A DNA stretch of 64,000 nucleotides from Vicinamibacteria bacterium (GTDB lineage: Bacteria > Acidobacteriota > Vicinamibacteria > Fen-336). The translations under genes and the position numbers were made by a program. The notes under the pieces were generated by a model, which worked only from the letters and a program-made list of their open reading frames with translations, was not told the DNA's origin and searched no databases. The stretch is taken from NCBI GenBank assembly GCA_035570235.1, contig DATMML010000137.1, positions 62,001 through 126,000 of the forward strand, in the 5' to 3' direction. Position 1 is the stretch's first letter. Each line of letters starts with the position of its first letter. Positions 1,739 through 37,744 of the stretch are shown here, piece after piece.

Positions 1739-1771
1739 GGCGTCCTCATGCCGTCGTGCTTCTCATTCAAT

Positions 1772-7774: not shown

Positions 7775-7780
7775 GGGCTC

Positions 7781-8290: not shown

Positions 8291-9165
8291 GCCGCCGCCC
8301 GCTCGATGGCGCGCAGCCGGGCGCTGCGGGCCCGTGGGTTGTCGCGGACCTCCTCCGCGCTCGGGCGGAGGGGTCGCCGGGTCAGGGCGTTAAAGCCCTG
8401 GGTGAGGAGGGCCCGAAAGGTCACCTTGACCTCACGATCCTCCAGGCTGTGGAAGGCGATCACGACCATCCGCCCCCCGGGGGCGAGACAAGAAGCCAGC
8501 GCCTCGAGGGTCGAGCCGAGGGCCTCGAGCTCGCGGTTCACACGGATGCGGAGGGCCTGGAAGGTGCGGGTGGCGGGGTGGAGGCCGGGCCGGCGGCTCC
8601 GGCCCGCGGAGCGGCGCACGATCTCGGCCAGGGCGGTGGTGGTCGCGATGCGGGAAACGCGGCGCGCCTCCACGATGGCGCGGGCGATCCGCCGCGATGC
8701 GGGCTCCTCCCCGTAGCGGTAGATGAGGTCCGCCAGCTCGCGCTCGGGCATCCGGTTCACCACCTCCGCCGCCGTCTCCCCCCGGCTCCGATCCATGCGC
8801 ATGTCGAGGGGCCCCGCAGCTTGGAAGCTGAACCCCCGCTCCGGCGCGTCGAGCTGCGCGGAGCTGATCCCGAGGTCGAGGAGGATGCCGGCCGCCCTCT
8901 CGCCGCCGAGGAGGGTGGGGATCTCGCGGTAGTCCGTGTGCACGAGGCGCGCGCGCGAGGCGAACGGCAGGAGGGCGGCGCGCGCCCTCTCCAGGGTCTC
9001 CCCATCGTGGTCGACGCCGAGGAGGCGCCCGTCGGGCGCGCTCCGCCGCAGAAGCTCGACCGCGTGTCCGCCCAGGCCCACCGTCCCGTCCACGTAGAGG
9101 CCTCCCCGCCTCACGGCCAGCAGCTCCAGGCTCTCGGCCAGGAGGACCGGCCGATGGTCCACCAC
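8287..9165 (-). CDS. rsmH: 16S rRNA (cytosine-1402-N4)-methyltransferase RsmH (MraW)
   Basis: S-adenosylmethionine-dependent enzyme that methylates C1402 of 16S rRNA. The 292-residue protein begins with the family phrase HRPVLLAESLELL and has the SAM-binding motif DGTVGLGGHA at about 26-35, LLDLGISSAQLD, the ERGFSF segment and the C-terminal ALTRRPLRPSAEEVRDNPRARSA block. It starts with GTG one base after the mraZ stop; a second GTG immediately follows, so the start is ambiguous by one codon. Confidence 0.97.
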   Translation of the reverse strand: MVDHRPVLLAESLELLAVRRGGLYVDGTVGLGGHAVELLRRSAPDGRLLGVDHDGETLERARAALLPFASRARLVHTDYREIPTLLGGERAAGILLDLGISSAQLDAPERGFSFQAAGPLDMRMDRSRGETAAEVVNRMPERELADLIYRYGEEPASRRIARAIVEARRVSRIATTTALAEIVRRSAGRSRRPGLHPATRTFQALRIRVNRELEALGSTLEALASCLAPGGRMVVIAFHSLEDREVKVTFRALLTQGFNALTRRPLRPSAEEVRDNPRARSARLRAIERAAA

Positions 9166-9166
9166 A

Positions 9167-9607
9167 TCAGATCCCGAACTCCGAAAGGGCCTTCCCGTCG
9201 TCGTCGGTGAAGGGCTCCTTCTTGAAGCGCTCCAGGAGGCGCTTCTGGTTCCATACTTCCATGTAAGTGTGCGCCCCGAGCACGCTCACCTCGCCCACCA
9301 TGGCCGCGGACTCGCGCAGGAGCTGGGGCAGGAGCACGCGACCCTGCTTGTCCAGGGCCACGACCTGACCGAAGTAGTTGACGCGGTCCAGGAAGCGAAG
9401 CTTCGAGGGATTGGTGGAGGGAACCGCGGCCAGCTTCCGCTCGATCTCCAGCCAGACCGCCATCGGATACAGCCGCACGTACTCCCCGGTCACGCTGGTC
9501 ACGAACAGCTCGGGCCCGTACTGCGACTCCACGAGCGTGCGGAAGCCGTTCGGCACCTTGAGGCGGCCCTTGTCGTCGATGCGTGCCGGATGATTACCCC
9601 GGAGCAT
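9167..9607 (-). CDS. mraZ: Transcriptional regulator MraZ (dcw-proximal copy)
   Basis: DNA-binding repressor of the dcw operon in other bacteria. The 146-residue protein has two AbrB-like half-domains: DDKGRLKVPNGFR at about 11-23 and DKQGRVLLPQLLR at about 86-98. GGGGGAG directly precedes the ATG. Its promoter and three GTGG repeats lie 104-160 bases upstream. A divergent second MraZ is encoded immediately upstream on the same strand (9780-10286), so two family members are adjacent. Confidence 0.95.
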   Translation of the reverse strand: MLRGNHPARIDDKGRLKVPNGFRTLVESQYGPELFVTSVTGEYVRLYPMAVWLEIERKLAAVPSTNPSKLRFLDRVNYFGQVVALDKQGRVLLPQLLRESAAMVGEVSVLGAHTYMEVWNQKRLLERFKKEPFTDDDGKALSEFGI

Positions 9608-19485: not shown

Positions 19486-19487
19486 GC

Positions 19488-19820
19488 TCAAGCCGCCTGC
19501 GGGCGGGGGTGCCGCCCGCGGCAACGGGAGCCGCATTCCTCGAGTCGGGTCGCTCGATCCGCGGAGTTGAACAGCACGAGAATGCCGTCGTCGTGCCGCG
19601 TCCCCCCGATCCCGTGGCCGACCGCTCGCCCCACACCGAGCGAGGCGGCGGCCGGATAGCGCCCAGGGTCGGACAGGGACGCCGGCGCGAGGTAGCTTGC
19701 CGCCTTAGCCCAGTCCCAATCATCCCGGAGCCGCCGCAGGCACGACCCGCAAATCACCTGGGTCGTGGGCTTCACGGCTGCCGCCGCTCCGGCGATGATC
19801 AGCGGCGTGCCTTCCTTCAT
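19488..19820 (-). CDS. Hypothetical 110-residue protein sharing the TlpA N-terminus
   Basis: The first 15 residues (MKEGTPLIIAGAAAA) match those of the TlpA-like protein at 17522 (MKEGARLVLVGAAVV), and the DNA upstream is the duplicated segment, so its 5' end is derived from a tlpA copy. The remainder is unlike TlpA: it has a CGSC motif (TQVICGSCLRRL), then a region ending in a Cys-containing basic tail. I recognise no family. Its stop lies 2 bases before asnB, which suggests a co-expressed small partner. It may be a chimaera or gene remnant. Confidence 0.5.
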   Translation of the reverse strand: MKEGTPLIIAGAAAAVKPTTQVICGSCLRRLRDDWDWAKAASYLAPASLSDPGRYPAAASLGVGRAVGHGIGGTRHDDGILVLFNSADRATRLEECGSRCRGRHPRPQAA

Positions 19821-21076: not shown

Positions 21077-22186
21077 TCACGGCCTCCACTCCTCCTTGAA
21101 AGTCGTCGCTTTCTCGACCCGGGCCCAGAGGACGGCGTGTCCAATGCCGGGGCCCTCAGGAACGGCGATGGTGCCGTCGGGGGCGACCGTGACCGGGGGA
21201 TCGATGAGATCCTCTTCGAAATAGCGGGCGCTCGCGGAGGTGTCGCCGGGGAGCGTGAAGCCGGGGAGGGTCTGGAGGTGGACGTTGGCGAGGCGCCCAA
21301 TCCCGGACTCCAGCATTCCTCCGCACCAGACCGGCATCCCCCGCGCCGAGCAGAGATCGTGGATGGCGAGGGCGGCCGCGAAGCCCCCCACCCGCCCCAC
21401 CTTGATATTAATGATGCGGCAGGCCCCGAAATCGAGCGCGTGGCGGGCGTCGTCCGCGGAGCGGATCGACTCGTCCAGGCAGACGGGGGTCCAGATCTGC
21501 CGCTGGAGGGCGGCATGATCCAGGATGTCGTTCCAGGCCAAGGGCTGCTCCACCATCAGGAGGCGGTGCTCGTCCAGCTCGCGGAAGAGGGCCACGTCGT
21601 CCAATGTGTAGGCGCTGTTGGCGTCCACCATGAGGGGGATTTCCGGGAAACGCGCGCGTAGGGCGCCGACGAGCTCGCGGTCGCGGCCGGGCTTGATCTT
21701 GATCTTGATCCGGCGGTAGCCGGCCGCGACCTCCGCCTCCACGCGGTCGAGGAGGGTGGGAATGTCCTTCTGCAGGCCCACGGAGACGCCGGCGGCGATG
21801 GTGCCGCCGCGGCCGCCCAAGAGCCGGTGAAGGGGCGCGCCCTCGCGTCGGGCCCACAGCTCCCAGACCGCCATCTCCAGGGCGGCCTTGGCCATCTCGT
21901 GCCCGCGCACGCGGGCGAAGGCCGCGGGCAGCTCGCGGGGGTGCCCGATCTCGAGGGTGAAGGCAAGGGGGGCCAGGAAGTCGCGCAGGATGTGGAGGAC
22001 GGTGGTGTTGGTCTCGGGCAAGTAGAAGGGGTCGACATCCGCCACGCACTCCCCGTAACCGGTCACGCCCTGGGCGGAGACGGAGACGAGGAGGAAGTTC
22101 TTGGCCGTGGTGCGGGTGAAGGAGGTTTCGAAGGGGTGGCGAAGGGGCAGGCTCAGCCCCCGGACCTCGACCCGCTCCAGCCTCAC
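21077..22186 (-). CDS. MenC-type o-succinylbenzoate synthase / N-acylamino-acid racemase
   Basis: Enolase-superfamily enzyme of 369 residues. The capping domain is at the N-terminus (PLRHPFETSFTRT). The barrel has the acid/base Lys pair KIKIKP (about 161-166), metal ligands in DANSAY (Asp188), VEQPL (Glu213) and CLDES (Asp238), and the second catalytic Lys in INIKVGRVGG (about 262). This pattern is that of the MenC/NSAR branch. No other menaquinone genes are nearby, and the neighbouring M20 amidohydrolase fits N-acylamino-acid metabolism equally well, so the reaction is left open. Confidence 0.87.
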   Translation of the reverse strand: MRLERVEVRGLSLPLRHPFETSFTRTTAKNFLLVSVSAQGVTGYGECVADVDPFYLPETNTTVLHILRDFLAPLAFTLEIGHPRELPAAFARVRGHEMAKAALEMAVWELWARREGAPLHRLLGGRGGTIAAGVSVGLQKDIPTLLDRVEAEVAAGYRRIKIKIKPGRDRELVGALRARFPEIPLMVDANSAYTLDDVALFRELDEHRLLMVEQPLAWNDILDHAALQRQIWTPVCLDESIRSADDARHALDFGACRIINIKVGRVGGFAAALAIHDLCSARGMPVWCGGMLESGIGRLANVHLQTLPGFTLPGDTSASARYFEEDLIDPPVTVAPDGTIAVPEGPGIGHAVLWARVEKATTFKEEWRP

Positions 22187-22189
22187 GCG

Positions 22190-22687
22190 CTAGGCCCTTC
22201 GCGAGGGTAAGGGCGCGGCTTCGCTTCCCCGCGCCTCCCGCGGCGCGCGGGAGGCGCAGCGTCGGCACAGGCCGAAGATCTGGTGACGGTGCCCCTCGAT
22301 CACGAACCCGAAGTCCGCCGCGATCTCGTCCTGGATGCGCTCGATCTCCGGATTCGCGAATTCAAAGATCTCGCCGCAGGACTTGCAGATGAAATGGTCG
22401 TGGTGGGCCCGCTTGTAGTCCACCTCGAAGCGGGTGTCGCCCTGCAGGGACAGCTCACTGGCCAGGCCCGCCGCCTGCAGGAGCTTGAGCGTGCGGTAGA
22501 CGGTGGTGCGGCCGATGTCGGGCCGACGCTTCTGGACGATCTGGAGCAGGTCGTCCACGGAGAGGTGCCGCTCCGAGCGGAGGAAGGCGTCCAGGATCAC
22601 CTCGCGCTGCCCGCTCCGCTTGAGCCGGTTCTTCGCCAGGTAGGTGGCGAAGACTTCCTTCTCCTCGCGCCCGGCCTTCCCCTTCAC
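22190..22687 (-). CDS. Fur-family metal-responsive transcriptional regulator
   Basis: A 165-residue winged-helix repressor. The DNA-binding helix region is RPDIGRTTVYRTLKLLQAAGL, followed by HHDHFICKSCGEIFEF, which holds the regulatory metal site histidines and the first structural Cys pair (101, 104), and a second pair CRRC (141, 144). Members include Fur, Zur and PerR; the sequence alone does not tell which metal. It has a GTG start 3 bases before the menC-like gene begins downstream, and a good promoter upstream (22697-22726). Confidence 0.93.
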   Translation of the reverse strand: MKGKAGREEKEVFATYLAKNRLKRSGQREVILDAFLRSERHLSVDDLLQIVQKRRPDIGRTTVYRTLKLLQAAGLASELSLQGDTRFEVDYKRAHHDHFICKSCGEIFEFANPEIERIQDEIAADFGFVIEGHRHQIFGLCRRCASRAPREARGSEAAPLPSRRA

Positions 22688-22747: not shown

Positions 22748-25700
22748 CTAGGGCTCGTCCTCCAGGCGCAGCGCGGGATCCCCGAGGAGGCCGAAGCCCT
22801 CCACCACCGGGGCCATGGCCGGGTTCGCCTTCAGGGCCTCCGTCTTGGCACGCTGCATCGCCTTGCCCAGCGTCTCCCCAGCCAGGAAGTGGGCGTAGAG
22901 CCGCCGCGAGAGCTGCTGCTGCAGGAGGGGGTCGCTGATTCCCACCGGTCCCACGCTGGCCAGGGTGCCTCCCTGGGGGACGAAGAGGAGCGCCTCGTTG
23001 ACGGTGGGGCCGCCGTCGTTCTGGTAGTACTGGACCTCGCACGTCCAGGTGAAGAGGACGGTCTCCCGGCCCGAACCGGAGAGGGAGGCGGCATCCCCCA
23101 CCCGCAGCAAGCCGCCGTTGGACCAGCGGTCAAAGCCCCCGTGCCCGAAGTAGTGCGTGGTCTGCACTCCCGCCGCCAGGCTCCCCAGGAGGACGCCCTG
23201 CGCTTCGGCCAGGCCGCTCGCCGTGTCCGCCCAGGTCACCTGGCCGGGGAGCTGCCCGGCCACCGCTTCACCCTCCCCGCGGAACGAGATGTCTCCCGGG
23301 CCCGCCTTCTCCACCGCGATCAGGTGACGCCCGCGCAGCTGCTTCACCACATCCCCTTGACGTGCGATCTTGTCCACCATCACCTCGGCCTCCGCGACCG
23401 TCTGCACGGGCAGCCGACCGATGGCGAGATCCGGGCTCCCGTCCCCGTCCACGTCCGCGTAGGCGTTCTCCGAAGGCACGCGCCCGTAGACCCCGTCCCA
23501 GCCGTTCAAGGACGGCACGTAGGACACGAGGCCCTCCCCCAGGTGGTTCCGGGGGTCGAAGGTGTCGCCCCCCACCAGGAGCACGTACTTGACCCGGCTC
23601 TGCTGCCAGGCCTCCCGGATCAGGGCCTGCACGGCCTTGGCTTCGAACACTCCCCCGCTGAACCGGTCGTAGGCCCGCTCCACGTCCACCACCACCGCGT
23701 GGAGCCCCTCCCGCCTCTTGAGCTCGGCTATGCGCTCCGCCGGCTCGAGGAAGGCCCCGTGGGTCACGATCAGGTAGTCGGCGCCGCGGAGCGAGGGCAG
23801 CCGCGGGTCGTAGGCCACCACCTCGTCCACCGGGGCCGGCCCGGTGGGGGCTTCGAGGACGACGCCCAGGTCGACGACGTCCAGGAAGGCCAGGCCGGGA
23901 GCATCCGCCGTCGCCCCCGTCGCCTGGTAGGTGAACGTCAGCTCGTTCCCGGCCGCGCGCAAGGCCGATCCCGGCACGGACCCCACGAGGAGCGCGGGGA
24001 CCTTGCCCTGGAACGCCACCTGCCCCACGCGGACGCCGTTGATCTGCGCCTCCACGATGTGATGGTGGTCCGTCGCCCCCAGGAGCCCGATCTGGACGCG
24101 CACCGCGCCCCCGGGAGCCACGAGCCCGGGAAGGTCGAAGCTGTCGGGGCCGGTCGGAAAGGCCGTGGACAGGAAGTCCCAGACCCAGGGGTCCATTCCC
24201 TGGGCCACGAAGGGCGCGAAGAAGAAGTCCTGCTCGACGCGCACCATTCCGGGCACGCGCGGGAACCCCGAGCGGCTGAGCTCTACCACCGGCGGAGGCG
24301 GCGTACCTGCCGTGACGAGATAGGCGTTCTCGCCCGTGAAATCCGTGGACAGCTCCTCGGCCCGGAACTGGATCCCTCCCGCCGCCGCGCGGAAGGGGAC
24401 GAGCCGGCCCAGATTCGTGACCAGGAGGCGCTCCGGATGCTCCACCGGCAGTCCGAGGGCGGCGAGCTGCGCGAGCGGGACCGTCACCATCCCCGCATGG
24501 CTCACCTCCACCTTCACGCCCAGAGAGCCCCAGACCGGCCGCCGCTCGGGCCGGGGGGCCGCCCGCCGCAGGGCGGGATCCCTCCGGCCGGTCAGCATGC
24601 GGGCCCCGTCCGTCTGGTGCACCTCCTCGTCCCCGTGCCGGACTTCGATCTCTTCGAGCGACGCCCGTAGGCCGGCATCGGAGGCGGCAAACGGCCCCAT
24701 CACGCGGTGGCGGCCGCCCACCTCGATCTCCTCGATCTCGACCTCGTCCACCCTCACCGGCCCTGTCTCCACCCGGTAGAGGGTGGGCCGCGAGGTGTCC
24801 GGCGCGGGGGCCGCGAGCAGGCTCCGGTTCAGGGGGACCCGAGTGCCGTCCCCCTCCAGGGCGTAGACGTTGAAGCCCGAGGTCCCCCGCTGGACCCCGG
24901 TCGCGAATTCCAGGCTTCCCCCCTCCACGCGCAGGCCGATCACGCTCGTGCGGGTCAAGGCCGGGCAGATCTGCACTCCGGGGATCGTGTTCAGGGTGAG
25001 GGTGGTCTGGAGGATGCCGACCGCCCCGTTCGTAGCCCCATACGTCAGGGTGGGCGTGGTGTGGCTGCTGTCGCACTGGTTCGTGAGGCCGGAGACGCCG
25101 CCCGCCACGCTGGTGGAGGCCGCATTGGCAGAGAGAAGAATGACGCCGCCCCCACCCCCGCCCCCCGGACCGTGGTGGCTGCCCCCGGGTGTGGGGGGAG
25201 GATCCGGGGCCGGAGGCGAGGAAAGGTTGGCGTAGCCGCCCCCGCCGCCGTTGGCGGTCGCAGTGAGCCCGCCGAGGCCTCCCGACGCCACCGCCACGAC
25301 GATGCTTCCGCCGGCGCCGCCGCCCCCGCCGCCATCGTTGGCGGTCGACGGAGGCCGCACGCCGTTGGCGGTGATGGTCCCCGTGCCCGCCACCGCGTTC
25401 GCACGGATGAGGACGATCCCGCCCCCGTTGCCGCCCCCGCTCGGCCCGGCGTTGTTGCGGCTCCCCGCCCCGCCCCCGCCGCCGAGGAAGAGACGAGTGG
25501 CGGACGCCCCCGGGGCTTGGCCACCGAGGCCCCCCGTCTTCGAGCCATCCGTGATGGGCGGGCAGGGCGTGGGGTTATCGAGCCAGCCCCAACCCCCCTG
25601 ACCGCCCGCACCCCCGTTGCCGCCCGCCCCGCCGCCCGTGTTGTCGTCGTTGCCACCCGGGTCGCCGTCGGTGCCGCCGCCCCCCGCGTTGGCGGGAGCC

Positions 25701-26536
25701 CCCCGCGCCCGGTCGCCGTTAGGGTAGGCATCGTTCCCGGTGCCGGCCCCCAGGATGTCGGGCGTGCCCGCAATTCCTTCGCCCTTGCCCCCGTTGAGGT
25801 TGAAGGTGATGCTGGTCACGTAGTCGGTGGTGTTCCCGGTGTCCCCCCCCAGCGGCTCCCCGGGCGCGCCCCGGAACCCCTGGCCGGTCACGGTCACGCT
25901 GTTGAGGGAGAGCGTGAGGGTGCCGCTCGCGTCGATGGCCACCACACCGCCCGCCGCGCCGTTCCAGGCCGTGGCGGTCACGCCGGAGATCGTGACGTTC
26001 GCGAAGCGGGCGACTTTCACGACCTGGAATGTCCGCTGGCCGGCGGTGGCAGTGGCGGCCGCCGACCGATAGGCGTTCAGGGTGCCGAAGGGCCCCACAC
26101 CCGCGTTGGCGCTCGTGATGTTGAGGTTGACGTTGGCCCCCGAGCCGACGGCCACCGCGTTCTGCGCGACCACGTACTCGAAGAGGCCGCTGCTGTTGAG
26201 TCCGGTCCCGGCGAACGCGCCGTAGGCGGCGGTGTTCGTAGTGTTGATGTCCGCATCCTGCATCTGGATGAGGAGGAGCATGTCGCCCACGGCGATGTTC
26301 TGCGCCAGGCCAAGGACGGCGTTGGTATTGACGTGGATGTGCGTCGAGCCCGCGGCCCAGGTCCCAACCCCCGGATAGTACGTGTTGAGCACGTTTGACT
26401 GGGTGGCGACCGGGCTCGGAAAGCCGCAGGTCTGGGCAAAGACAGCCGAAGGGGACGCCCCCGCCAACGACAAGGTAAGAAGACCAGGAATCAGACGAAA
26501 AAGAGCTTGGGTGAGTCGCATTTTGTCCGCTTTCAT
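22748..26536 (-). CDS. Secreted C25 (gingipain-like) cysteine peptidase with glycine-rich region
   Basis: A 1262-residue exported protein. Residues 1-35 are a signal peptide ending SAVFAQ. Residues about 40-520 form a beta-rich, very Gly-rich region with runs of GGGGG (about 280-470), resembling beta-helical surface proteins. The last 400 residues are a C25 domain: YLIVTHGAFLEPAERI, KYVLLVGGDTFDPRNHLG, DVDGDGSPDLAIGRLPVQT, then catalytic His near 1132 (HYFGHGG) and Cys near 1166 (FTWTCEV). No type IX sorting domain is visible. It starts 43 bases after the HprK-like gene on the same strand, so co-transcription with the RiPP genes is possible. A second Met at codon 6 is an alternative start. 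Confidence 0.88.
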   Translation of the reverse strand: MKADKMRLTQALFRLIPGLLTLSLAGASPSAVFAQTCGFPSPVATQSNVLNTYYPGVGTWAAGSTHIHVNTNAVLGLAQNIAVGDMLLLIQMQDADINTTNTAAYGAFAGTGLNSSGLFEYVVAQNAVAVGSGANVNLNITSANAGVGPFGTLNAYRSAAATATAGQRTFQVVKVARFANVTISGVTATAWNGAAGGVVAIDASGTLTLSLNSVTVTGQGFRGAPGEPLGGDTGNTTDYVTSITFNLNGGKGEGIAGTPDILGAGTGNDAYPNGDRARGAPANAGGGGTDGDPGGNDDNTGGGAGGNGGAGGQGGWGWLDNPTPCPPITDGSKTGGLGGQAPGASATRLFLGGGGGAGSRNNAGPSGGGNGGGIVLIRANAVAGTGTITANGVRPPSTANDGGGGGGAGGSIVVAVASGGLGGLTATANGGGGGYANLSSPPAPDPPPTPGGSHHGPGGGGGGGVILLSANAASTSVAGGVSGLTNQCDSSHTTPTLTYGATNGAVGILQTTLTLNTIPGVQICPALTRTSVIGLRVEGGSLEFATGVQRGTSGFNVYALEGDGTRVPLNRSLLAAPAPDTSRPTLYRVETGPVRVDEVEIEEIEVGGRHRVMGPFAASDAGLRASLEEIEVRHGDEEVHQTDGARMLTGRRDPALRRAAPRPERRPVWGSLGVKVEVSHAGMVTVPLAQLAALGLPVEHPERLLVTNLGRLVPFRAAAGGIQFRAEELSTDFTGENAYLVTAGTPPPPVVELSRSGFPRVPGMVRVEQDFFFAPFVAQGMDPWVWDFLSTAFPTGPDSFDLPGLVAPGGAVRVQIGLLGATDHHHIVEAQINGVRVGQVAFQGKVPALLVGSVPGSALRAAGNELTFTYQATGATADAPGLAFLDVVDLGVVLEAPTGPAPVDEVVAYDPRLPSLRGADYLIVTHGAFLEPAERIAELKRREGLHAVVVDVERAYDRFSGGVFEAKAVQALIREAWQQSRVKYVLLVGGDTFDPRNHLGEGLVSYVPSLNGWDGVYGRVPSENAYADVDGDGSPDLAIGRLPVQTVAEAEVMVDKIARQGDVVKQLRGRHLIAVEKAGPGDISFRGEGEAVAGQLPGQVTWADTASGLAEAQGVLLGSLAAGVQTTHYFGHGGFDRWSNGGLLRVGDAASLSGSGRETVLFTWTCEVQYYQNDGGPTVNEALLFVPQGGTLASVGPVGISDPLLQQQLSRRLYAHFLAGETLGKAMQRAKTEALKANPAMAPVVEGFGLLGDPALRLEDEP

Positions 26537-26578: not shown

Positions 26579-27460
26579 TCAAGAAGCAAGGGCCATGCCT
26601 GGGCCCGCAAGGGCCTCGTCCACGGCCCGCACAGCCGAGCCATCGGCCCGGGACCCGAGCTCGTACGCGGGCACCGCGCCCAGGAGGCGCGCGCAGGTCT
26701 GAAGCACGGTGCCCACGCCCTCGGCCTCCCAGATTGGCGGGAAGCACCGAGCGAAGAGCTCGGCTCCCGCCCGGGGTGCGGTCAGGATTTTGACCCGAGT
26801 TCGGGAAGATTGCCGCAGGAAGAAGATTGCGCGGAGGGGCGCGCCCCGGGGCGAGGCATATCGGCCAGAGCCGTGCCAGGGCGTTCCGTAGATCCAGGGT
26901 CGGCCGTCGCGCCAGCGCACGACGGTCCGATCGTCGCTGAGCACGAGCGCGCCCTTTCGATGCCTGCGCCACAGCCGGGCCATGGTCGTCTTCCCCGCAC
27001 CCGATCGACCGCAGAAGAGAAACGCCCCTCCTCCCCGCACCTTGACGCCGCACGCATGGACAACGAGGGCGCCCGCGCACGCCAGGTGGTGCTGGAAGAG
27101 GAGCTCGTCCAGGGGATAAGACAGGGCACAGCCGCGTCGAGCGTCCTCCGCGGAGGGAGGCAGGTAGAGCCGTCCGCGCCGACGGCCGCGGTCGATGGCC
27201 ACGGCTCGAGCCACGCCGCCCAAAGCGGCAGGGAAGCTGTAGAGGACGAGACGGCCTTGACCATGGACCCGCCAGGGCCCGCCGGAATCGAAGAGCAGGG
27301 GGCCGGGAGGGGGAGGTTCTTCCCTCACGACCTCGAGGCGAATGTCTTCTCCCTGGCGGGCGGAGAAGGGCCGGAGCGCCCGCGGGAGGAGCAGGCTGGG
27401 CAGGGAACAGGGCGCGTGGACGGCGAGGGTGACGCCAGCGATGCGCAGGCGAGTCACCAT
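26579..27460 (-). CDS. HprK-like kinase of RiPP cluster
   Basis: A 293-residue P-loop protein of the HPr-kinase-like family seen in peptide-modification clusters. Walker A is GRSGAGKTT (about 151-159), followed by VLSDDRTVV (about 173-181) and the GTPWHG motif (about 192-197) that typifies this subgroup; the N-terminal 100 residues are beta-rich. True HprK/P features for HPr are absent. In paeninodin lasso-peptide clusters a homologue phosphorylates the precursor peptide. I start at the ATG at 27458-27460, 5 bases after the radical SAM stop; the longer frame only shadows that gene. Confidence 0.87.
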   Translation of the reverse strand: MVTRLRIAGVTLAVHAPCSLPSLLLPRALRPFSARQGEDIRLEVVREEPPPPGPLLFDSGGPWRVHGQGRLVLYSFPAALGGVARAVAIDRGRRRGRLYLPPSAEDARRGCALSYPLDELLFQHHLACAGALVVHACGVKVRGGGAFLFCGRSGAGKTTMARLWRRHRKGALVLSDDRTVVRWRDGRPWIYGTPWHGSGRYASPRGAPLRAIFFLRQSSRTRVKILTAPRAGAELFARCFPPIWEAEGVGTVLQTCARLLGAVPAYELGSRADGSAVRAVDEALAGPGMALAS

Positions 27461-27465
27461 GCACG

Positions 27466-28734
27466 TCAGCGCGGGAGAGAAGCCCCTTTCGCTCTCGAGC
27501 CCTCCGGCCGACGCTGGATCTGGATGAGCGGGGCCTGCGCGGGCTGGGCCGAGCAGGACCCGCAGCCGCCCGCAGTTGTCGCCACCGTCCGGCTCGCTCC
27601 CGACACCCCGCCCAGGCAACAACTGGCGTCCCGCCGGTGGCCCGAGGCCTCGCCCAGGAGGGCATAGGTTCTGAGGTGCGTGATCTCGCAGAACTGGGGG
27701 ACGAGGCCCTCGATGTCGCCCGTCTCCATTTCCGCCGCCCCCGGGCAGCTCCCGCACACGGGCCTCAGATCGCAACGCCGGCAGACAGCGTTCGACTGCC
27801 ACTTCCGCGCCCGGAGCGCGGGGAAGAACTCGTGCCAGCCGCGGGCGAAGCGATCCTCCCGCAGGTCGAACGAGCGGCGGCGGGAAAGCTGGCAAAGTTG
27901 GAGGTGGCCGTAGGGATCCACCGTGAAGCCGATCTGCCCCGCCCCGCACGCGTAGACGTTCTCCTCCTGATGGGGGTCGCGTTCCGCATCGGCGAGCCGG
28001 CGGTAGGACTCTTGATAGGCAGTCCGCCGGGCGGGGTCCTCGAGATCCACCGCCACCGCGCGCTCGGGTGAAACCTGGAGGCCCGGGTCCCTATGGGCGC
28101 CGCAGTCCACGCGCGGGTTGAGCAGGCTGTCGTGCCGGAAGGCGACGCCCAGGGAGCGGGCGAACTCCCGCATCGCCGCAACCTCGTGCTCGTTCCAGGT
28201 CAGGACCATGGTCTTGAGCTTCAGGGGCAGGCCGCGTTCGTGCAGCCGACGGATCCCCGCCAGGCAGCGGTCGAACGAGCCCTCGACCCGGGTCACACGC
28301 TCGTAGGTCTCCCGGGTCATCCCGTAGAGGGTGATCTCCACGACCGCAGGGGGGTGAGCGGCGAAGAGGTCCGCGATCCTGTCCGTGACCAGGGTTCCGT
28401 TGGTGTAGATGCTGACCCGTAGACCCCGGCTCACGGCGTGGAGGTAGAGCTCGGGGAAGTCGGGACGCAGGAGCACCTCCCCTCCCGTGAGCAGGAGGTC
28501 GAGGCAGCCCTCGTCCACGATCTCGTCGATCAGCTCCTTCAAGCGGGGGAGGCCGAGTTCCTGCTCCCGGACCCCGCGCGCGCTGGCCGGCTCGTTGACG
28601 TAGCAGTGGACGCAGTTGAGGTTGCAGCGGAAGGTGGTCTCGATCGTTCCTTCGAGGGGGATCCGCCGCGCGTAGGCCCCCGCCTCCTCCAGGAATTCCC
28701 CGAGCGATACCTCTTCGATGGGCGGCGCGTCCAC
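27466..28734 (-). CDS. Radical SAM-SPASM peptide-modifying enzyme
   Basis: A 422-residue [4Fe-4S] enzyme. The radical SAM cluster motif CxxxCxxC is CNLNCVHC at residues 37-44, and LLTGGEVLLRPDF is the SAM-binding GGE motif. The SPASM domain supplies further Cys at about 263, 281, 318, 321, 327, 330 and 349 (CRRCDLRPVCGSC), ligands for auxiliary clusters. Enzymes of this class cross-link or otherwise modify precursor peptides. After SPASM comes a tail of about 60 residues with CC at 372-373 and CGSC at 391-394, not expected for the family. The GTG start is 3 bases after the precursor stop. Confidence 0.92.
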   Translation of the reverse strand: MDAPPIEEVSLGEFLEEAGAYARRIPLEGTIETTFRCNLNCVHCYVNEPASARGVREQELGLPRLKELIDEIVDEGCLDLLLTGGEVLLRPDFPELYLHAVSRGLRVSIYTNGTLVTDRIADLFAAHPPAVVEITLYGMTRETYERVTRVEGSFDRCLAGIRRLHERGLPLKLKTMVLTWNEHEVAAMREFARSLGVAFRHDSLLNPRVDCGAHRDPGLQVSPERAVAVDLEDPARRTAYQESYRRLADAERDPHQEENVYACGAGQIGFTVDPYGHLQLCQLSRRRSFDLREDRFARGWHEFFPALRARKWQSNAVCRRCDLRPVCGSCPGAAEMETGDIEGLVPQFCEITHLRTYALLGEASGHRRDASCCLGGVSGASRTVATTAGGCGSCSAQPAQAPLIQIQRRPEGSRAKGASLPR

Positions 28735-28737
28735 GGC

Positions 28738-28902
28738 CTAGCTGCCCTTGCTGAAGTTCACGAACCGGCCGCCGATCCGGCAAACGTTGACCCCGACCAT
28801 GACCGCCTTGCAGCCGGTCACCGCCAGCTCGTCCGGCACGAGCTTCACCTTGCGGATCCTTGGCGGCTCGTAGGTTTGCCTAGGCTTGGCTCGCTTGACC
28901 AT
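28738..28902 (-). CDS. RiPP precursor peptide, 54 residues
   Basis: A short gene directly upstream of the radical SAM gene. It reads MVKRAKPRQTYEPPRIRKV..., has a leader-like PDELAVTGCKAV segment around residues 23-34, and two Cys (31 and 41) in a Gly/Val-rich C-terminal part ending FVNFSKGS. GAGAGGAAGG precedes the ATG by 8 bases, a strong ribosome binding site. Position, size, leader style and the RRE-type carrier nearby support a precursor role. The cleavage site is not evident; GC before Cys31 is a plausible region. The stop (TAG) is 3 bases before the radical SAM GTG. Confidence 0.82.
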   Translation of the reverse strand: MVKRAKPRQTYEPPRIRKVKLVPDELAVTGCKAVMVGVNVCRIGGRFVNFSKGS

Positions 28903-28966
28903 GGCTAGCGCCTTCCTCTCAGTTTCTTCAGCGTACGGCCCCGACGCCGTGCTGTCCAGGGGCTCT

Positions 28967-28982
28967 TGCTATATTCCTGCCA
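28967..28982 (-). promoter_or_regulatory. Sigma-54-like promoter upstream of the RiPP precursor
   Basis: On the minus strand TGGCAGGAATATAGCA matches the sigma-54 consensus TGGCACGN4TTGCW at all but two positions, keeping GG and GC exactly ten bases apart. The predicted start at about 28957 would give a 54-base leader. No sigma-54 activator gene is present in the window. Confidence 0.5.
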
Positions 28983-29016
28983 CATCGCGGGGCCGGGAGG
29001 GGGGTTGTGACGCCGA

Positions 29017-29328
29017 TCACGGCCGGCACGGATGAACCGCCTCGATCGACAAGAGTTGGACCATGAAGGCACGGTAGTCGGCCACCGCGCGCAAGGAGTC
29101 CACGTCAAAATCCTCCACCAGGGCCCGCACGATCTCCTCCCCGCTCGAACGCCCGTCCAGCCGCTCCCAGATGAAGGCCCCCACGCGGTTCAGGTTGAAG
29201 ATGGCGTCGAGGTCGGCCCCCCGGCCCACGATGGGCACGAGCACGTACTCCTCGGCGATGCGGCGACCGACCATCCGCTCGGAGCGGGCGAAGACGTCGG
29301 CCAGGGATAGGCTCTCCGCGGACGTCAC
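29017..29328 (-). CDS. PqqD-like peptide-recognition protein
   Basis: A 103-residue member of the PqqD/RRE family that presents leader peptides to modifying enzymes. The signature IFNLNRVGAFIWERLDGRSSGEEIVRALVEDF is the winged-helix PqqD fold, with flanking VPIVGRGADLDAI strand. The longer open frame shadows the peptidase; I start at the GTG (29326-29328), which overlaps the peptidase stop as GTGA. It sits between the peptidase and the precursor gene, with 114 bases of spacer to the precursor ATG. Confidence 0.9.
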   Translation of the reverse strand: MTSAESLSLADVFARSERMVGRRIAEEYVLVPIVGRGADLDAIFNLNRVGAFIWERLDGRSSGEEIVRALVEDFDVDSLRAVADYRAFMVQLLSIEAVHPCRP

Positions 29329-29756
29329 GGCCGGCGGGGTACGGCCGCGACCAGCCGAAGCCGCGACCAGAGCCCCCCGAGAAGGGAGAGGAGCGCCCGC
29401 CAGACACCTCCCCCCTGCCCCTCGTCGATCACGGTGGCCAGGACGTGGTGCGGGTCCAGCAGCGGATCCCAGAGCCAGGATCGATCGCCCTTCGTCCGCC
29501 AGCGCGTTCCCCGGGGCGCCAGGGGCGGCCCCCACACCAAGCGGTGCAGCCGGAGTCCCGCGGGAAGGCGCACGAGCACGACGTCGCCCAGGCGGGGCGG
29601 CCTCCGGGCGGGCGAGGCGAGGCGAACCGCATCCCCCGCGACGAGGCCCGGCCTCATGCACTCTCCGCTCACCCGCAGCCGGACCGAGGGGAAGCGCTCG
29701 AGGCAGTCACGGACGATGAGATCGCTAAGGGCCGGTCCGACCTCGAGCGTTTGCAT
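29325..29756 (-). CDS. S24/S26-family peptidase-like protein with Cys in place of the catalytic Ser
   Basis: A 143-residue protein of the signal-peptidase/LexA superfamily. The sequence LRVSGECMRPGLVAGD corresponds to the SGxSMxP nucleophile box, but Cys33 (codon TGC) replaces Ser. LRLHRLV supplies a His at 71 where S26B (Sec11/SipW-like) enzymes have their general base, and WRTKGDRSWLWD matches the TKGDNNxxxD box. A hydrophobic C-terminal stretch (about 118-138) may anchor it. The chosen ATG is 29754-29756; the open frame upstream is a shadow of the nucleotidyltransferase. Role in leader removal is an inference. Confidence 0.82.
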   Translation of the reverse strand: MQTLEVGPALSDLIVRDCLERFPSVRLRVSGECMRPGLVAGDAVRLASPARRPPRLGDVVLVRLPAGLRLHRLVWGPPLAPRGTRWRTKGDRSWLWDPLLDPHHVLATVIDEGQGGGVWRALLSLLGGLWSRLRLVAAVPRRP

Positions 29757-29778
29757 GTCGGGTTCCAAGCCCGATCCT

Positions 29779-30858
29779 CTAGGGTGTGGCCCGCCAGGCG
29801 CGAAGGCTGGGAACGGCCCAGCGTCCAACCAAGAGAGCGGCGCGCCGGAGTGACCCCAGAAGAGACCCCGAGCCCGGCACGCCGCCTCGGAAGGTGAGGC
29901 GCAGGAGCTCGAGCCGGCGGCCGGCCAGGAGCTGCCACCGCACGGGGGCCAGCGCCGGCTCCGCGGGGGAGATGAGGGCGAGCGGCGTGCGCAGCCGCTG
30001 GCCGAGTCCCCTCGGAATCGCCCGGAAGGTCGCGAGCTTATCGCGGACTTCCCGCGGCACCCTGGCCCCGAGCACCGTCTCGGCCGCGGCCAGTGCCGCA
30101 AAGACGGGGGCCCCGGCGGACGACCGGGCGGCCAGCTCGAGGAGTCGGTCCGAATCAATGGGCGCGCGCTCCAGAAGGCGGCGAAAGTCCAGCCATTGGA
30201 CGAGGGACAGGACTAAGCCATGTTGGAACGCGGCGTGCAAGCAGAGGTGTAGGAGGACATCTTCCGTGGCTGGAATCCGGGCGATTTGCCCACTTGCGGG
30301 CCGACTTCTTGACCAGATGCCATCGGCATCGAAGGGAAAAAGGCCCGGGCAGGAAGTCAGGGAATGGTGGAGCTCCAGAACGCCGCCCCAAACGGGGTCC
30401 AGAAGGGCGACCGCATGATCCGAGCGTCCGATCTCTTTGAACCCCTCAGCCGCGAGCAGGCGCTGGGCACCCGGCCCGTCGTCCAGGGCCAAGAGGTCCA
30501 CGTCGGCCATGGGGCGTTCGGCCACGGATTCGTAGAGCCACTCGGCAACGGCCGCGCCCTTCAGAGGCAGCGAGCGCAGGCCGTGGCCGGCCAGGAGGCG
30601 CTCCACGCGCGCCGCCATCTCCAGCTGCCGGACCCCGCGCACGAAGGCCTCGCGGTGGGAGCTCGCCAGGATGTCGAGGGCGGCGGCCGGCCAGGGAGCC
30701 GAAGATGATCGGGCCGTCTGGTGAAGAAGCCCGGAAAGGCCTTGACGTCGGGCCTCCTCGGCGAGGGCTTGGGCGGCTGCCGCATCGGGGAAGGAGGGCG
30801 GAATGCCCGCGCGCAACCACTCGCGCAGCTGGGCCCGCGCCCTTTTTGACTTGGGCAT
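29779..30858 (-). CDS. Uncharacterised nucleotidyltransferase (NTP_transf_5 type)
   Basis: First gene of the RiPP cluster, 359 residues. The family signature LPLKGAAVAEWLYESVAERPMADVDLLAL (about 97-125) holds the KG and DVD catalytic features of the MNT-like nucleotidyltransferase fold, and the rest is helical. Such proteins recur in lasso-peptide and related clusters with HprK- and PqqD-like genes; the reaction is unknown. A TTG at 30894 also opens the frame but lies inside the -35 box, so I use the ATG at 30856-30858. Confidence 0.85.
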   Translation of the reverse strand: MPKSKRARAQLREWLRAGIPPSFPDAAAAQALAEEARRQGLSGLLHQTARSSSAPWPAAALDILASSHREAFVRGVRQLEMAARVERLLAGHGLRSLPLKGAAVAEWLYESVAERPMADVDLLALDDGPGAQRLLAAEGFKEIGRSDHAVALLDPVWGGVLELHHSLTSCPGLFPFDADGIWSRSRPASGQIARIPATEDVLLHLCLHAAFQHGLVLSLVQWLDFRRLLERAPIDSDRLLELAARSSAGAPVFAALAAAETVLGARVPREVRDKLATFRAIPRGLGQRLRTPLALISPAEPALAPVRWQLLAGRRLELLRLTFRGGVPGSGSLLGSLRRAALLVGRWAVPSLRAWRATP

Positions 30859-33117: not shown

Positions 33118-35211
33118 TCAGCTCTTAGCCGCCACCGCCGGGCGCGGCCCCCGTTTCTGGCCGCCCGCCCCTGAGCCCTCGTGATCGTAGTAGTAGTAGT
33201 GGTACCCCTGGGTCTGGATGTCCACCGCGTTCAGCACGAACCCGAGCAGGTTGTCGGTGGCCTTGCGCAGGGTGGCCAGGCTCCGCTTGACCAGCTTCTT
33301 GTCGACTTTGTTGTGCTGCACCACCATCACCACCATGTCGGCGTGGCGGGCGAGAAGAAGGGCGTCCGTCACGGAGGCAAGCGGGGGCGAGTCGAGGAGG
33401 ACCCACTCGAAGTGGCGGCGCAGGTGGGCGAGGAGATCGGCCACATTCTTGCGGGCAAGGATCGCGGGCGGGTTCGGGGGCAGGGGGCCGGCGGTGAGGG
33501 CGAAGAGGTTGGGCATGCGGGTGGCCTGGATGAGCGAATCCACGTCGTCGTGCTTCACGAAGAAATCGGTGAGCCCGGGCTCGCGCGGGAGGTCCAGCCG
33601 GTCGTGGATCTGGGCGCGGCGGAGGTCGCAGTCGAGTACCACCGTCCTCTCCCCCGACCCCGCCAGCAGCTTGGCGATGTTCACGAGGGTGGTGGTCTTG
33701 CCCTCCTGGGGTGCGGTGCCGGTGATAAGCACCACCTGCCCCCCCTCGTCCTTGCGCCCGAAGATGAGGGCCGTCCTCAGGTTCTGGTAGGCTTCGGTCA
33801 CGAGGTGGACGTTGTCCGCATCGTAGCGGGGCACCGCGGCCAGGAGCTCGAGGTGGAGGTAGCGCTCGGTCTCTTCCGGGTCCCGCAGCGTGTTGGCCAG
33901 GAAGTCCCGGGCCAGCACCAGGCCCAGCCCGAGGACGAGTCCGAGCAGGAGGCCCATGGCCCCGATCTTCCGTTTCTCGGGCCGCACGGGGTAGACGGGG
34001 ACGGAGGCCCGCTCCACCACGCTCACGTTGTTGGTGCGGATGGAGGCCGCGATATCGGTCTCGTGCAGCTTCTGGAGCAGGACTTCGTAGAGGCTCTTCG
34101 CGGAGTCCGCCTCCTTCTTCAAAGCCTCGAGCTCCGAGGCCTTTCGGCTCTGGGTCGCGGCTTGAGCCTTCTGGTTGTCGATCGCTGACCGGAGTTCCGT
34201 TTCCCGCTTCTGAAGCTGGCCGTACTCGGCCTGCAGGCCGCCCACAATCTGTGCTGTCCGGGCGTCCTTGGCTTTTCGAATCTGGGCGATCTGGGCCTGG
34301 ACCTTCTGCACCTCCGGGTGGCCTTCCTTGTACTTCTCGCTCAGCCGCGAGAGGTCGACGGTCAGGCCCGCGATCTGGCTGTTGAAGTTCAGAACCACCG
34401 GGTCCGCGGCCACCTGGGGAACGGTGTCCAGGCTCTGGCCCCCCTGCCGCATGTCCGTCACTTGCTTGAGAGCGGCCTCGATCGTGATCCGCCGCGCCTG
34501 GGCCTGGATGTAGTCGTCGTTCAGCTTGGTGATGGAGCTGGTCACGGCGGAGACGCTCCCCTCGGGTACGAAGAGGTCCTGGCTCTGGTAGCTCTTGAAG
34601 AGCTTGTCCTGGGCGTCCCGCATCCCGCGCTGGGTGTCGGCCAACCGCTCTTGGAGCCATTCGTAGGCCTTCCGCGCCGACTCGACGCGGCTGGCAAGCG
34701 TCTGCTCGATATAGACGTCGGCCAGCGTGTTGGCCCAGAGCGCCGCTTCCTTGGGGACCGTGTGGATGACCGAGACCACGACCAGACGGCTCTCCGGAAC
34801 GGGCTCCACCCCCACGTGGGACATGAAGAGGCTGCCCGCCTCGGGGCTGTCCTTGAAGGGCGGACGATCCCTGAGCTTGAGCTGGTCGACGACCTTCTCC
34901 CCCAGCCCCTTGGAGCGGAGCACGCGGAACTGCGTGTTGTAGAAGTCGGAGTTCTGCCAGAAGTTGCCCGCGCCCACCAGGGCATCGGTCACGGTCATGA
35001 AGGTAGGGGTGGGGGGCTCGATCTGGATCATGGCCCCCGCCCGGTACTCGGGGGTCTGCAGGAAGGCCACCAGGAGGGCGAGGCCGAGGCCCACGACCGC
35101 GGCCGCGCCGATGAAGACGCGGCTCCGCCAGAGAACGTCCGCGTAGTAGCGGATGTCCAGCTGCCGCTCGGTGGGGAGGCCCAGGCCGGGATCGTGGGGA
35201 ATCGTCGACAA
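33118..35211 (-). CDS. Wzc-type polysaccharide co-polymerase and bacterial tyrosine kinase
   Basis: A 697-residue inner-membrane protein. The N-terminal Wzz domain has a membrane helix (about 31-51) and a long periplasmic coiled coil (GNVR type), closed by a second helix near 400-430. The cytoplasmic BY-kinase has Walker A GTAPQEGKTT (about 498-507), Walker A' VVLDCDLRR (about 525-533), Walker B VLLDSPP (about 604-610) and a C-terminal Tyr cluster (670 and 672-675) for autophosphorylation. It controls chain length and export with Wza. The start is a TTG 11 bases after wza; an upstream alternative is not seen. Confidence 0.95.
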   Translation of the reverse strand: MSTIPHDPGLGLPTERQLDIRYYADVLWRSRVFIGAAAVVGLGLALLVAFLQTPEYRAGAMIQIEPPTPTFMTVTDALVGAGNFWQNSDFYNTQFRVLRSKGLGEKVVDQLKLRDRPPFKDSPEAGSLFMSHVGVEPVPESRLVVVSVIHTVPKEAALWANTLADVYIEQTLASRVESARKAYEWLQERLADTQRGMRDAQDKLFKSYQSQDLFVPEGSVSAVTSSITKLNDDYIQAQARRITIEAALKQVTDMRQGGQSLDTVPQVAADPVVLNFNSQIAGLTVDLSRLSEKYKEGHPEVQKVQAQIAQIRKAKDARTAQIVGGLQAEYGQLQKRETELRSAIDNQKAQAATQSRKASELEALKKEADSAKSLYEVLLQKLHETDIAASIRTNNVSVVERASVPVYPVRPEKRKIGAMGLLLGLVLGLGLVLARDFLANTLRDPEETERYLHLELLAAVPRYDADNVHLVTEAYQNLRTALIFGRKDEGGQVVLITGTAPQEGKTTTLVNIAKLLAGSGERTVVLDCDLRRAQIHDRLDLPREPGLTDFFVKHDDVDSLIQATRMPNLFALTAGPLPPNPPAILARKNVADLLAHLRRHFEWVLLDSPPLASVTDALLLARHADMVVMVVQHNKVDKKLVKRSLATLRKATDNLLGFVLNAVDIQTQGYHYYYYDHEGSGAGGQKRGPRPAVAAKS

Positions 35212-35222
35212 GAGAGGCCTTG

Positions 35223-36095
35223 CTAGAAGAGCCGGCGAGGCACGGAGACCACGTCGTTCGAGAGAAGGGCCAGGTCCGGTTCCTTGCCCTTCCGGACCGC
35301 CTTCAGATCCACGTCCAGGATCCGGGTCTGGCCCGTCTCCGGGTCCACCCGTCTGACCTTAAGGTTACTGCTGCCGAAGCGGGTCAGCCCCCCCGCGGTG
35401 GAGATGGCCCCCGTGATCGTGAGCTCGCCCTCGATCGGGTAGCGACCCGGCCGCACGATCTCGCCCTCCACGGTTACATAATACTTCGGCAAGGCGGTAA
35501 TGAGGTCGCCGTTTCTCAGCGGGACCTCCAGGTTGACCTGGTCCTGGGGCGAGGGTGCGGAGCCGGAGAGCCGCATGCGCAGGATCCGCGCACCTCCCTC
35601 GAATGACCCTTCCCGCCGGGCGATCTGGACGTCCCCCGAGGCGCGGGGGGTGAAGCCCCCCGCTTCCACGAGTACGTCGATGAGCCGTGTCCGCCCGCGC
35701 AGGGACTTCCGCCCGGGGCTGTTGACCTCGCCCACCACGGAGACGAACTGGCTTTGGTATTCCTTGACCTTCACCTCCACCTGCGGGTTCACGAGGTAGT
35801 CGCGGGCGAGGAGGGTGGTGAGCTTCCTCTGCACTTCGGGCAGCGTCAGCCCTGCCACCTCGACCTCGCCCAGCAAGGGGAGGGCGATGACACCGCTCGT
35901 CTGGACGGTGGAGGTGCGGGAGAGGTCGTCGTTGCCGAAGACGGTCACCTCCAGCACGTCCCCCGGTCCCACCCGGTAATCGGGAGCGGCCACCGGTGAG
36001 GGGGCGGTCGGGGGGGGTGCAGAGGCCGGGGCCTGGCCTCGGGCGGGAGCGGCCAGGGCCAGACCGACTACGGCTAGGAGGGTGATGCCTTTCAT
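35223..36095 (-). CDS. Wza-type polysaccharide export protein
   Basis: A 290-residue periplasmic/outer-membrane protein with a signal peptide (KGITLLAVVGLALAAPARGQ). The poly-export domain begins YRVGPGDVLEVTVFGNDDLSR and is followed by SLBB domains (VSVVGEVNSPGRKSLRGRTRLIDVLVEAGG and VTVEGEIVRPGRYPIEGELT). The ATG overlaps the stop of the outer-membrane barrel gene by 4 bases (ATGA), and wzc follows 11 bases later. The longer frame shadows the barrel gene. Confidence 0.95.
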   Translation of the reverse strand: MKGITLLAVVGLALAAPARGQAPASAPPPTAPSPVAAPDYRVGPGDVLEVTVFGNDDLSRTSTVQTSGVIALPLLGEVEVAGLTLPEVQRKLTTLLARDYLVNPQVEVKVKEYQSQFVSVVGEVNSPGRKSLRGRTRLIDVLVEAGGFTPRASGDVQIARREGSFEGGARILRMRLSGSAPSPQDQVNLEVPLRNGDLITALPKYYVTVEGEIVRPGRYPIEGELTITGAISTAGGLTRFGSSNLKVRRVDPETGQTRILDVDLKAVRKGKEPDLALLSNDVVSVPRRLF

Positions 36096-37744
36096 CGGCC
36101 CCCGGGGGCCCCGGAAAGGCCGATGCCGACTTGGACGATGAGCGAGTGGGTGGTGATCGTGAATTCCCGCAAGTTCGAGTCCCGGCGCTCCCGGCGGTAG
36201 TCCCCGCGCAGGAAGGCACGGCTGCCGAGCGGCCGCCCCAGGCCGACCGACCACGCGAAGATCGTGTCCTCACGGGGCACGCCGATGGCGCTGGCCACGG
36301 TCTGGTAGGTGTTCCACTGGTAGCCGGCGCCCCCCCGAAAGGCGCAGGAGAATGGAACCGGCAACGTGATCCCCGCCTGGACCGCTGTCGTCACGTAGAA
36401 GGCGTTCTGCTCGAAGGCGGAGAGGTCGGTCCCCCGGTTCACAAACAGTTCCAGCCAGGTGTCGGGACGAAATTCCTTCTTCAGTGAGACGCCGGTCGTG
36501 AGCCCCTGGAAGCGCTGACCGCCCGCCGCCGCCAGCGGGCTCGTCTGGTCGCGGAAGGCGAGCTCGATCTGACCCGTGACCAAGGGGGTGATTTCGCCCT
36601 TCAGGCTGAGGCCGACCGAGTTTGCGGTGGATTCCGCCAGGGGCCGCTGATCCGGCCGGGGCACGCGGTCGTACGTGTAGCCGAAGACGGCGCGCAGGCT
36701 CGGGGTCACCTCGTAGCCGAGGCCGGCGCGGAGGGAATAGTTGCTGAAGGGGAAGAAGCTGGAGGCGGTGTCGAAACTCACCTGGTTCCAGCCCGCGCCC
36801 AGATCCAGCCCGAGCCGCCCCCCCAGTTCCCAACGGGCTCCGAGATCGGTGCTCCAGCGTGTGAAGCGGCCGAGAGCGAAGAAGTATTCCCGCCCGGGGT
36901 CCACCTCGGTGGTTTCGAGAATGCCGTGGGCAAAATGCTCGCTCGCCCGCACAGTGAGGGACGTGCCCACGGGCAGGTCGAGGGAGGCGTTGGCAAGGTG
37001 GGTGGTGGTGCCCACCTCCGGGTAGGAGGAGAAGCTCCGCAGCCGCGGCTCATAGCTCGCCTGCAACTTGCCGTCGAAGAGGGGCATTTCCCCCGTCAGG
37101 CCTGGCTGGATTTGGAGATAGCGGTCCCGCACCGGCGTGGGTCCGTTCACACCGGCAACGTCCGCGTCCACATAGCTGAGAACGATGCTGGGTCGTAGCG
37201 ATAGGGGGCCCAAGCTCAAGCCCCCCCGCGTCTCCCCGCCAAAGCCGGCGGGGCGCTCCTCGGTACGCTCGCCCGCCTCCCCCGCGGAGCTCGGGAAGAG
37301 CCTCGAGTACAGCTCCTCCACCGGGGCCGTCGGCGGCACCGCCGGCCGCGCGGTCTCCTCTCCTCCGAAGAACACCGTGACGAGGGTCTCCTGCCGGTGC
37401 ACCTCGAACCCCACCTCGGAAGAGACGCGTACCCAGAGCGACACCCCACCGGGGCGGCGGACGATCCGGATGGCCTCCAAAGGCGGAGTCGCGGGCGGCT
37501 CCGTCAGGTTGTCGGGTGCCTCCGCGTCCAAGGAGATCACAACCTCGCTCCCCTGCCGCTCGACCTTCGCCCCCACCACCGGGCGCGAGCAGAGGACGTG
37601 CAGGGCCTGCCGCGAGCCGGCTGCGGTCACGCGCACGGCCAGGACCCGCGGCGTCTCGGCCTCCGGGACGGCGGGGAGCGCGGCTCCCGCCCCGCCATCC
37701 ACGGCCGAGGTCACGGCCAGGACCAGGGCCACCAAGGGGCTCAC
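36092..37744 (-). CDS. Outer-membrane beta-barrel protein of the polysaccharide operon
   Basis: A 550-residue exported protein. It starts at a GTG overlapping the WecA-like stop as GTGA, with a short signal (LVALVLAVTSAVDG). An AMIN-like N-terminal domain (RVLAVRVTAAGSRQALHVLCSRPV...) is followed by a long barrel of about 16 antiparallel strands with alternating hydrophobic residues and C-terminal Arg, e.g. RYLQIQPGLTGEMPLFDGKL and LELFVNRGTDLSAFEQNAFY. This resembles the barrel proteins of Acidobacteria and Myxococcota polysaccharide loci. A role in export at the outer membrane is inferred from context. Confidence 0.83.
   Translation of the reverse strand: MSPLVALVLAVTSAVDGGAGAALPAVPEAETPRVLAVRVTAAGSRQALHVLCSRPVVGAKVERQGSEVVISLDAEAPDNLTEPPATPPLEAIRIVRRPGGVSLWVRVSSEVGFEVHRQETLVTVFFGGEETARPAVPPTAPVEELYSRLFPSSAGEAGERTEERPAGFGGETRGGLSLGPLSLRPSIVLSYVDADVAGVNGPTPVRDRYLQIQPGLTGEMPLFDGKLQASYEPRLRSFSSYPEVGTTTHLANASLDLPVGTSLTVRASEHFAHGILETTEVDPGREYFFALGRFTRWSTDLGARWELGGRLGLDLGAGWNQVSFDTASSFFPFSNYSLRAGLGYEVTPSLRAVFGYTYDRVPRPDQRPLAESTANSVGLSLKGEITPLVTGQIELAFRDQTSPLAAAGGQRFQGLTTGVSLKKEFRPDTWLELFVNRGTDLSAFEQNAFYVTTAVQAGITLPVPFSCAFRGGAGYQWNTYQTVASAIGVPREDTIFAWSVGLGRPLGSRAFLRGDYRRERRDSNLREFTITTHSLIVQVGIGLSGAPGGR

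Follow-up and report, generated by a model that had tools for sequence, protein, structure and literature searches.

Phosphorylated lasso peptides of the paeninodin and pseudomycoidin type are made by clusters that combine a precursor with a YxxP leader, a stand-alone PqqD-like recognition element (RRE) for ribosomally synthesized and post-translationally modified peptides (RiPPs), a kinase homologous to HprK and, optionally, a nucleotidyltransferase, with a C-terminal serine as target (PMC8498205, PMC10368454). Their HprK homologues phosphorylate the side chain of the C-terminal Ser largely irrespective of the remaining sequence, and in the pseudomycoidin cluster a nucleotidyltransferase decorates the phosphopeptide with one or two hexoses (PMC8498205). 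The lasso kinase BsfK modifies Ser3 instead (PMC10368454). The same parts were found in an operon of the Vicinamibacteria contig DATMML010000137.1, within the 64,000-nucleotide stretch analysed here (the window). In this operon, a radical SAM/SPASM maturase stands in place of the lasso cyclase and an S26-like peptidase in place of the transglutaminase-like B2 protease, the peptide core contains cysteines, a C25 peptidase is linked, and no ABC exporter is. By analogy, the operon would work like a phosphorylated lasso cluster in which the cyclase has been swapped for a radical SAM maturase. It is probably an undescribed kind of RiPP operon, with a product modified and terminally phosphorylated by the steps proposed below; the type is real, widespread and apparently undescribed. 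The operon comprises seven genes, of which the first six lie head to tail with small gaps or short overlaps and span 26579-30858:

29779-30858, minus strand: nucleotidyltransferase-family protein, first gene of the operon (PF14907 NTP_transf_5, Pfam E = 2.2e-39)
29325-29756, minus strand: S24/S26-like peptidase with Cys replacing the nucleophilic Ser, candidate leader peptidase (alignment, profile)
29017-29328, minus strand: stand-alone PqqD-like RRE, binder of the leader peptide (PF05402, E = 1.7e-15)
28738-28902, minus strand: precursor peptide of 54 aa, MVKRAKPRQTYEPPRIRKVKLVPDELAVTGCKAVMVGVNVCRIGGRFVNFSKGS (homologues in 53/56 loci)
28738-28743, minus strand: precursor Ser54 codon and stop, predicted phosphorylation site (terminal Ser in 45/45 complete precursors)
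27466-28734, minus strand: radical SAM/SPASM maturase (PF04055, E = 5.6e-27)
26579-27460, minus strand: HprK/PEPCK-fold kinase, predicted C-terminal Ser kinase (motifs, predicted structure)
22748-26536, minus strand: secreted C25 (gingipain/PorU-type) peptidase of 1262 aa, seventh gene (PF01364, E = 2.3e-58)

The PqqD, radical SAM and PF14907 proteins scored above the Pfam cut-offs. The S26-like and HprK-like proteins fell below all Pfam and NCBIfam cut-offs, and their identities come from alignment, profile and structure. An initial annotation of the window had described the first six genes, on one strand and in this order; the minus strand carries all of these open reading frames (ORFs), supported by Pfam, structure or alignment. 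Its interval of 26579-30858 holds for the six genes and is too short for the operon, as it missed the C25 gene. It had also noted that no lasso cyclase, B2 protease or adjacent exporter is present, which agrees with the results for all three.

Comparison with described clusters

Lasso-peptide identity was rejected, the cyclase and the B2 protease both being absent. No lasso cyclase was found in the operon; the asnB-like ORFs of the window (17638-19536 and 40865-42754) are located elsewhere, with N-termini resembling ordinary amidotransferases. The window operon has no transglutaminase-like B2 protease, and a single Transglut_core3 match was obtained when 39 neighbouring ORFs from other loci were scanned. 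A degenerate lasso cluster, reduced to its tailoring genes by loss of the cyclase and the B2 protease, would account for the YxxP motif, the stand-alone PqqD/RRE, the HprK-type kinase and the nucleotidyltransferase, all as in paeninodin/pseudomycoidin-type clusters, and the PqqD protein scores on lasso PqqD models, under their cut-off. Such an origin is nevertheless highly improbable: the constant partner in two phyla is a radical SAM gene and not a cyclase, the invariant core cysteines are no lasso feature, and a gene set so widely retained is not degenerate.

Sactipeptide and ranthipeptide clusters (SkfB and PapB type) also pair a SPASM/twitch radical SAM maturase with a small precursor bearing conserved cysteines, whereas here the maturase lies far under the family cut-offs, the RRE is a separate protein, the kinase is a constant partner and the C25 peptidase a frequent one. 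The SynChlorMet cassette (NCBIfam TIGR04248-TIGR04251) contains a PqqD homologue, the HprK-like ScmC and SPASM radical SAM proteins; its models name two of the latter (ScmE, ScmF), whereas the loci studied here usually have one. Assignment to SynChlorMet was rejected on the curated cut-offs (33 vs 100 bits for PqqD, 24 vs 125 for the kinase and ~80 vs 400 for the radical SAM protein), as were the GeoRSP and mycofactocin assignments. The gene combination was undescribed in the literature searched beyond the lasso papers, which is weak evidence given that subscription journals lay mostly outside the search, and the radical SAM and RRE papers checked mention no kinase.

Conservation of the gene set and of the precursor terminus

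The operon was compared with 56 related loci from 53 other genomes of the Acidobacteriota and Chloroflexota, gathered with the radical SAM protein, with its alignment and with a profile of the precursor alone. Kinase homologues occurred in 54/56 related loci, precursors in 53/56, PqqD proteins in 51/56, S26-like peptidases in 40/56, C25 peptidases in 29/56 and nucleotidyltransferases in 19/56, several of the absent genes falling at contig ends. The search with the precursor profile is the cleanest test of linkage because the remaining genes are not in the query; it recovered loci with radical SAM, kinase and PqqD genes alongside in two phyla. Most Chloroflexota loci share the order PqqD, radical SAM, precursor, kinase, S26, C25. 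Two precursor-profile matches (L127, L128), with neither neighbouring genes nor a terminal Ser, were discarded as false. A scan of a genome collection with the single radical SAM protein returned two loci only, and a plasmid search with the same protein gave no match. Three loci (L044-L046) had a related radical SAM protein and kinase and no recognisable precursor.

As hallmarks of a RiPP system, a conserved short precursor with a leader was found, together with a leader-binding RRE beside a modifying enzyme. The initial annotation had named scattered genes or a missing precursor in orthologous loci as grounds for abandoning its proposal, and neither outcome appeared in the counts for precursor, kinase and PqqD. 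Its suggestion of a RiPP of no characterised class, carrying a radical-SAM change and possibly a phosphate, is supported by the gene linkage, the leader motif and the invariant terminal Ser.

An alignment of 34 precursors contained five invariant columns, namely a leader Tyr, a leader Pro, two core Cys and a Ser near or at the end, as well as two near-invariant positions, one leader Leu and the Lys following the first Cys. The leader motif is YxxP....L. The residue ahead of the first Cys was variable, and a fixed leader cleavage site was not definable from the alignment. One of the 34 peptides ('...VGSS') carries an extra Ser beyond the invariant Ser column.

Serine was the terminal residue in 45/45 complete precursors from the window, the Acidobacteriota loci and L048, which is labelled as a Chloroflexi metagenome-assembled genome. 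As this feature was first noticed in 14-17 peptides, 14 of which formed the seed profile, the peptides found later are its test; several of these matched the profile only over the leader and core, short of the C-terminus, yet end in Ser. The terminal codon was TCN in 30 and AGY in 15 of the 45 precursors and all three stop codons occur, which therefore indicates that the terminal Ser is held by selection and not by shared DNA. It is also kept although the cores vary and carry indels. Of the Chloroflexota cluster precursors, 10/12 have Ser or Thr as their last residue, and the endings CFS and CFT alternate among near-identical peptides.

Two variants of the locus were also observed. A related cluster (L043:7355-13305) combines one kinase with three radical SAM genes, and its precursor is longer and ends in Ser. 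One Chloroflexota genome (G469) has five more near-identical precursor genes on other contigs (L141, L143-L146), all Thr-ending, for which no partner genes were detected nearby, some of those contigs being short.

Predicted modification of the peptide

The radical SAM protein possesses the CxxxCxxC motif and seven SPASM-type cysteines (conserved positions C37, C41, C44, C263, C281, C318, C321, C327, C330 and C349), and scores below the cut-off of the Pfam SPASM model. Its closest solved structure is SkfB (E = 1.8e-28), a thioether-forming sactisynthase. Since SkfB is the closest solved maturase and the core cysteines are invariant, thioethers at these cysteines are the likely modification. Alternatively, the radical SAM change may be of another kind (a C-C or ether cross-link, or an epimerisation), with the cysteines serving as disulfides or metal ligands and the kinase still acting on the terminal Ser. 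SPASM enzymes catalyse many reactions, and the NCBIfam maturase models (SkfB, AlbA, StsB, PapB) all scored far under their cut-offs with the window protein and four relatives, so that the chemistry is not assignable by family. This alternative carries real weight at somewhat below even chances, in view of the thioether-forming SkfB as closest solved maturase and of the cysteines as conserved core residues. The window protein also has a Cys-rich C-terminal tail (CCLGG...GCGSC, 27466-27620), kept in L032-L034 and missing in most relatives, which is possibly an extra metal site.

The kinase contains the P-loop GRSGAGKTT, within which the SGaGK(S/T) motif is conserved, and His135, Lys157 and Asp176 are invariant in the alignment. 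Its AlphaFold model (pLDDT, the predicted local distance difference test, of 93) matches PEP carboxykinase (PEPCK; Z 13.9) and HprK/P (Foldseek E = 3.6e-4), which belong to one fold superfamily. In a sequence search, HPr kinase was recovered at E ~1e-5 among P-loop proteins; the top PDB sequence matches of the kinase profile, ABC transporters, were rejected as similar in the P-loop only. As lasso HprK homologues phosphorylate a C-terminal Ser and the terminal Ser is invariant here, the HprK-like kinase is predicted to phosphorylate this residue. BsfK modifies Ser3, and the presence of a kinase alone therefore cannot place the site; the terminal-residue rule does.

A PF14907 homologue was detected within 10 kb in 19/56 loci and in 0/12 Chloroflexota loci; the nucleotidyltransferase is an accessory component. 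The initial annotation had envisaged a phosphate or a nucleotide group, and of these the phosphate is supported, whereas the lasso precedent for the accessory protein is a hexose on the phosphate. It had also singled out the S26-like peptidase as being of a Cys type. A Cys does occupy the nucleophile position ('SGECMRP'), with the partner His conserved, in the window, L033, L034 and L046, all within the taxonomic family of the window, but the other aligned relatives have Ser, and the alignment points to a lineage-specific Ser/Cys difference, not to a defining feature of the cluster. The family profile matches the SEC11 signal peptidase (SEC11C, E = 1.8e-10), and the gene linkage suggests a role as leader peptidase.

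In the proposed pathway, the stand-alone PqqD protein would hold the precursor by its leader, as is usual for its family, and the SPASM radical SAM enzyme would then join the cysteines of the core to residues nearby, most likely through thioether bonds. The HprK-like kinase would phosphorylate the last residue and, where present, the PF14907 protein may add a group to the phosphate, most likely a sugar if the one lasso precedent applies. The S26-like peptidase would cut off the leader in the cytoplasm and, more speculatively, the secreted C25 peptidase might act on the peptide or its carrier following export.

A C25 peptidase is genetically part of the system

The C25 ORF starts 42 nt past the kinase stop and encodes a signal-peptide-like N-terminus, a long N-terminal region and a C-terminal C25 domain; the precursor, unlike it, has no signal-peptide-like N-terminus. 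The 5.7-Mb genome has no other C25 gene, and in many genomes with a single C25 gene that gene is located no more than about 9 kb from the precursor. Other genomes also have C25 homologues next to the operon, and in Chloroflexota these are on the same strand in 11/12 cluster loci, usually as the last gene. Among 100 relatives, 12 had both the cluster and a C25 gene, 3 the cluster only, 3 C25 only and 82 neither (Fisher p = 1.8e-10, kinship ignored), and physical adjacency is an argument separate from this statistic. The catalytic His (GHG/GHA) and Cys motifs were intact in linked homologues with a complete region. The closest solved structure to the C25 domain is PorU (E = 3.2e-10), the C25 sortase of type IX secretion, which likewise is a large secreted protein bearing a C25 domain with intact His and Cys, the difference being that C25 is linked here to a RiPP operon. 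A link between C25 and peptide biosynthesis was found nowhere in the literature searched, most subscription journals being outside its reach. The C25 linkage and the terminal-Ser rule, both missed by the initial annotation, are the two most informative features of the system.

The relationship to PorU also raises the alternative that the terminal Ser remains unphosphorylated and acts as a recognition or anchor residue, for instance with a PorU-like sortase C25 joining the peptide C-terminus to a surface polysaccharide. The C-terminal residue would then be the site of transpeptidation, and the window locus lies beside exopolysaccharide genes. This is unlikely, however, as the kinase is present much more regularly than C25 (54 vs 29 of 56 loci), the terminal Ser is retained in loci without detected C25, and a sortase normally recognises a motif and not a single residue. 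The modified peptide could also be a built-in regulator or inhibitor of C25 and not a diffusible product, as would fit the location of the genome's only C25 gene in the operon, the PqqD-radical SAM-precursor-kinase-S26-C25 order of most Chloroflexota loci and the lack of a linked exporter. Such a role is equally improbable, given that roughly every second locus lacks a C25 gene within contig reach and that C25 has a signal-peptide-like N-terminus and the precursor none.

The preferred reading, a terminally phosphorylated RiPP modified by the radical SAM enzyme, has several points weighing against it. The similarity to SkfB may reflect just the common radical SAM core, and SPASM enzymes also form C-C and ether bonds. 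The likeness to the lasso kinases was drawn only at the level of the HprK fold and motifs, and the window peptide has two core Cys only, compared with three in most precursors. Two Chloroflexota peptides, L156 (7055-7243, ...PPTQP) and L157 (7140-7289, ...YICAM), end in Pro and Met despite a kinase in the cluster; either the terminal rule has exceptions or the kinase is able to use another residue, as BsfK does. Around half of the loci had no C25 gene nearby, in part because contigs end, and no exporter was linked, the 39 neighbouring ORFs scanned having no transporter in common.

The full extension of this reading, a new two-phylum RiPP class whose radical-SAM-crosslinked peptide is phosphorylated at a C-terminal Ser or Thr, sometimes glycosylated, and then trimmed or joined to a glycan at the cell surface by a PorU-like C25, is conceivable and rather doubtful as a whole. 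If the preferred reading is right, a modification until now reported from lasso peptides, terminal phosphorylation, would serve a second and unrelated RiPP scaffold, terminal Ser and HprK would together form a tailoring module that is portable and could guide searches, and a gingipain/PorU-type C25 peptidase would be tied to peptide biosynthesis. This reading offers an easily tested prediction across many genomes of poorly studied phyla.

Genomic surroundings

The operon sits between a peptidoglycan and division cluster with mra/mur-like ORFs (329-9607) and an exopolysaccharide cluster (33118-63676). Directly downstream of C25 and on the same strand, the region 21077-22687 encodes a Fur-like regulator and an enolase-superfamily epimerase-like enzyme, as judged by eye from the ORF sequences. 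The exopolysaccharide side includes Wzc-like (33118-35211) and Wza-like (35223-36254) ORFs and glycosyltransferases, and Wzc-like neighbours were also present in nine related loci.

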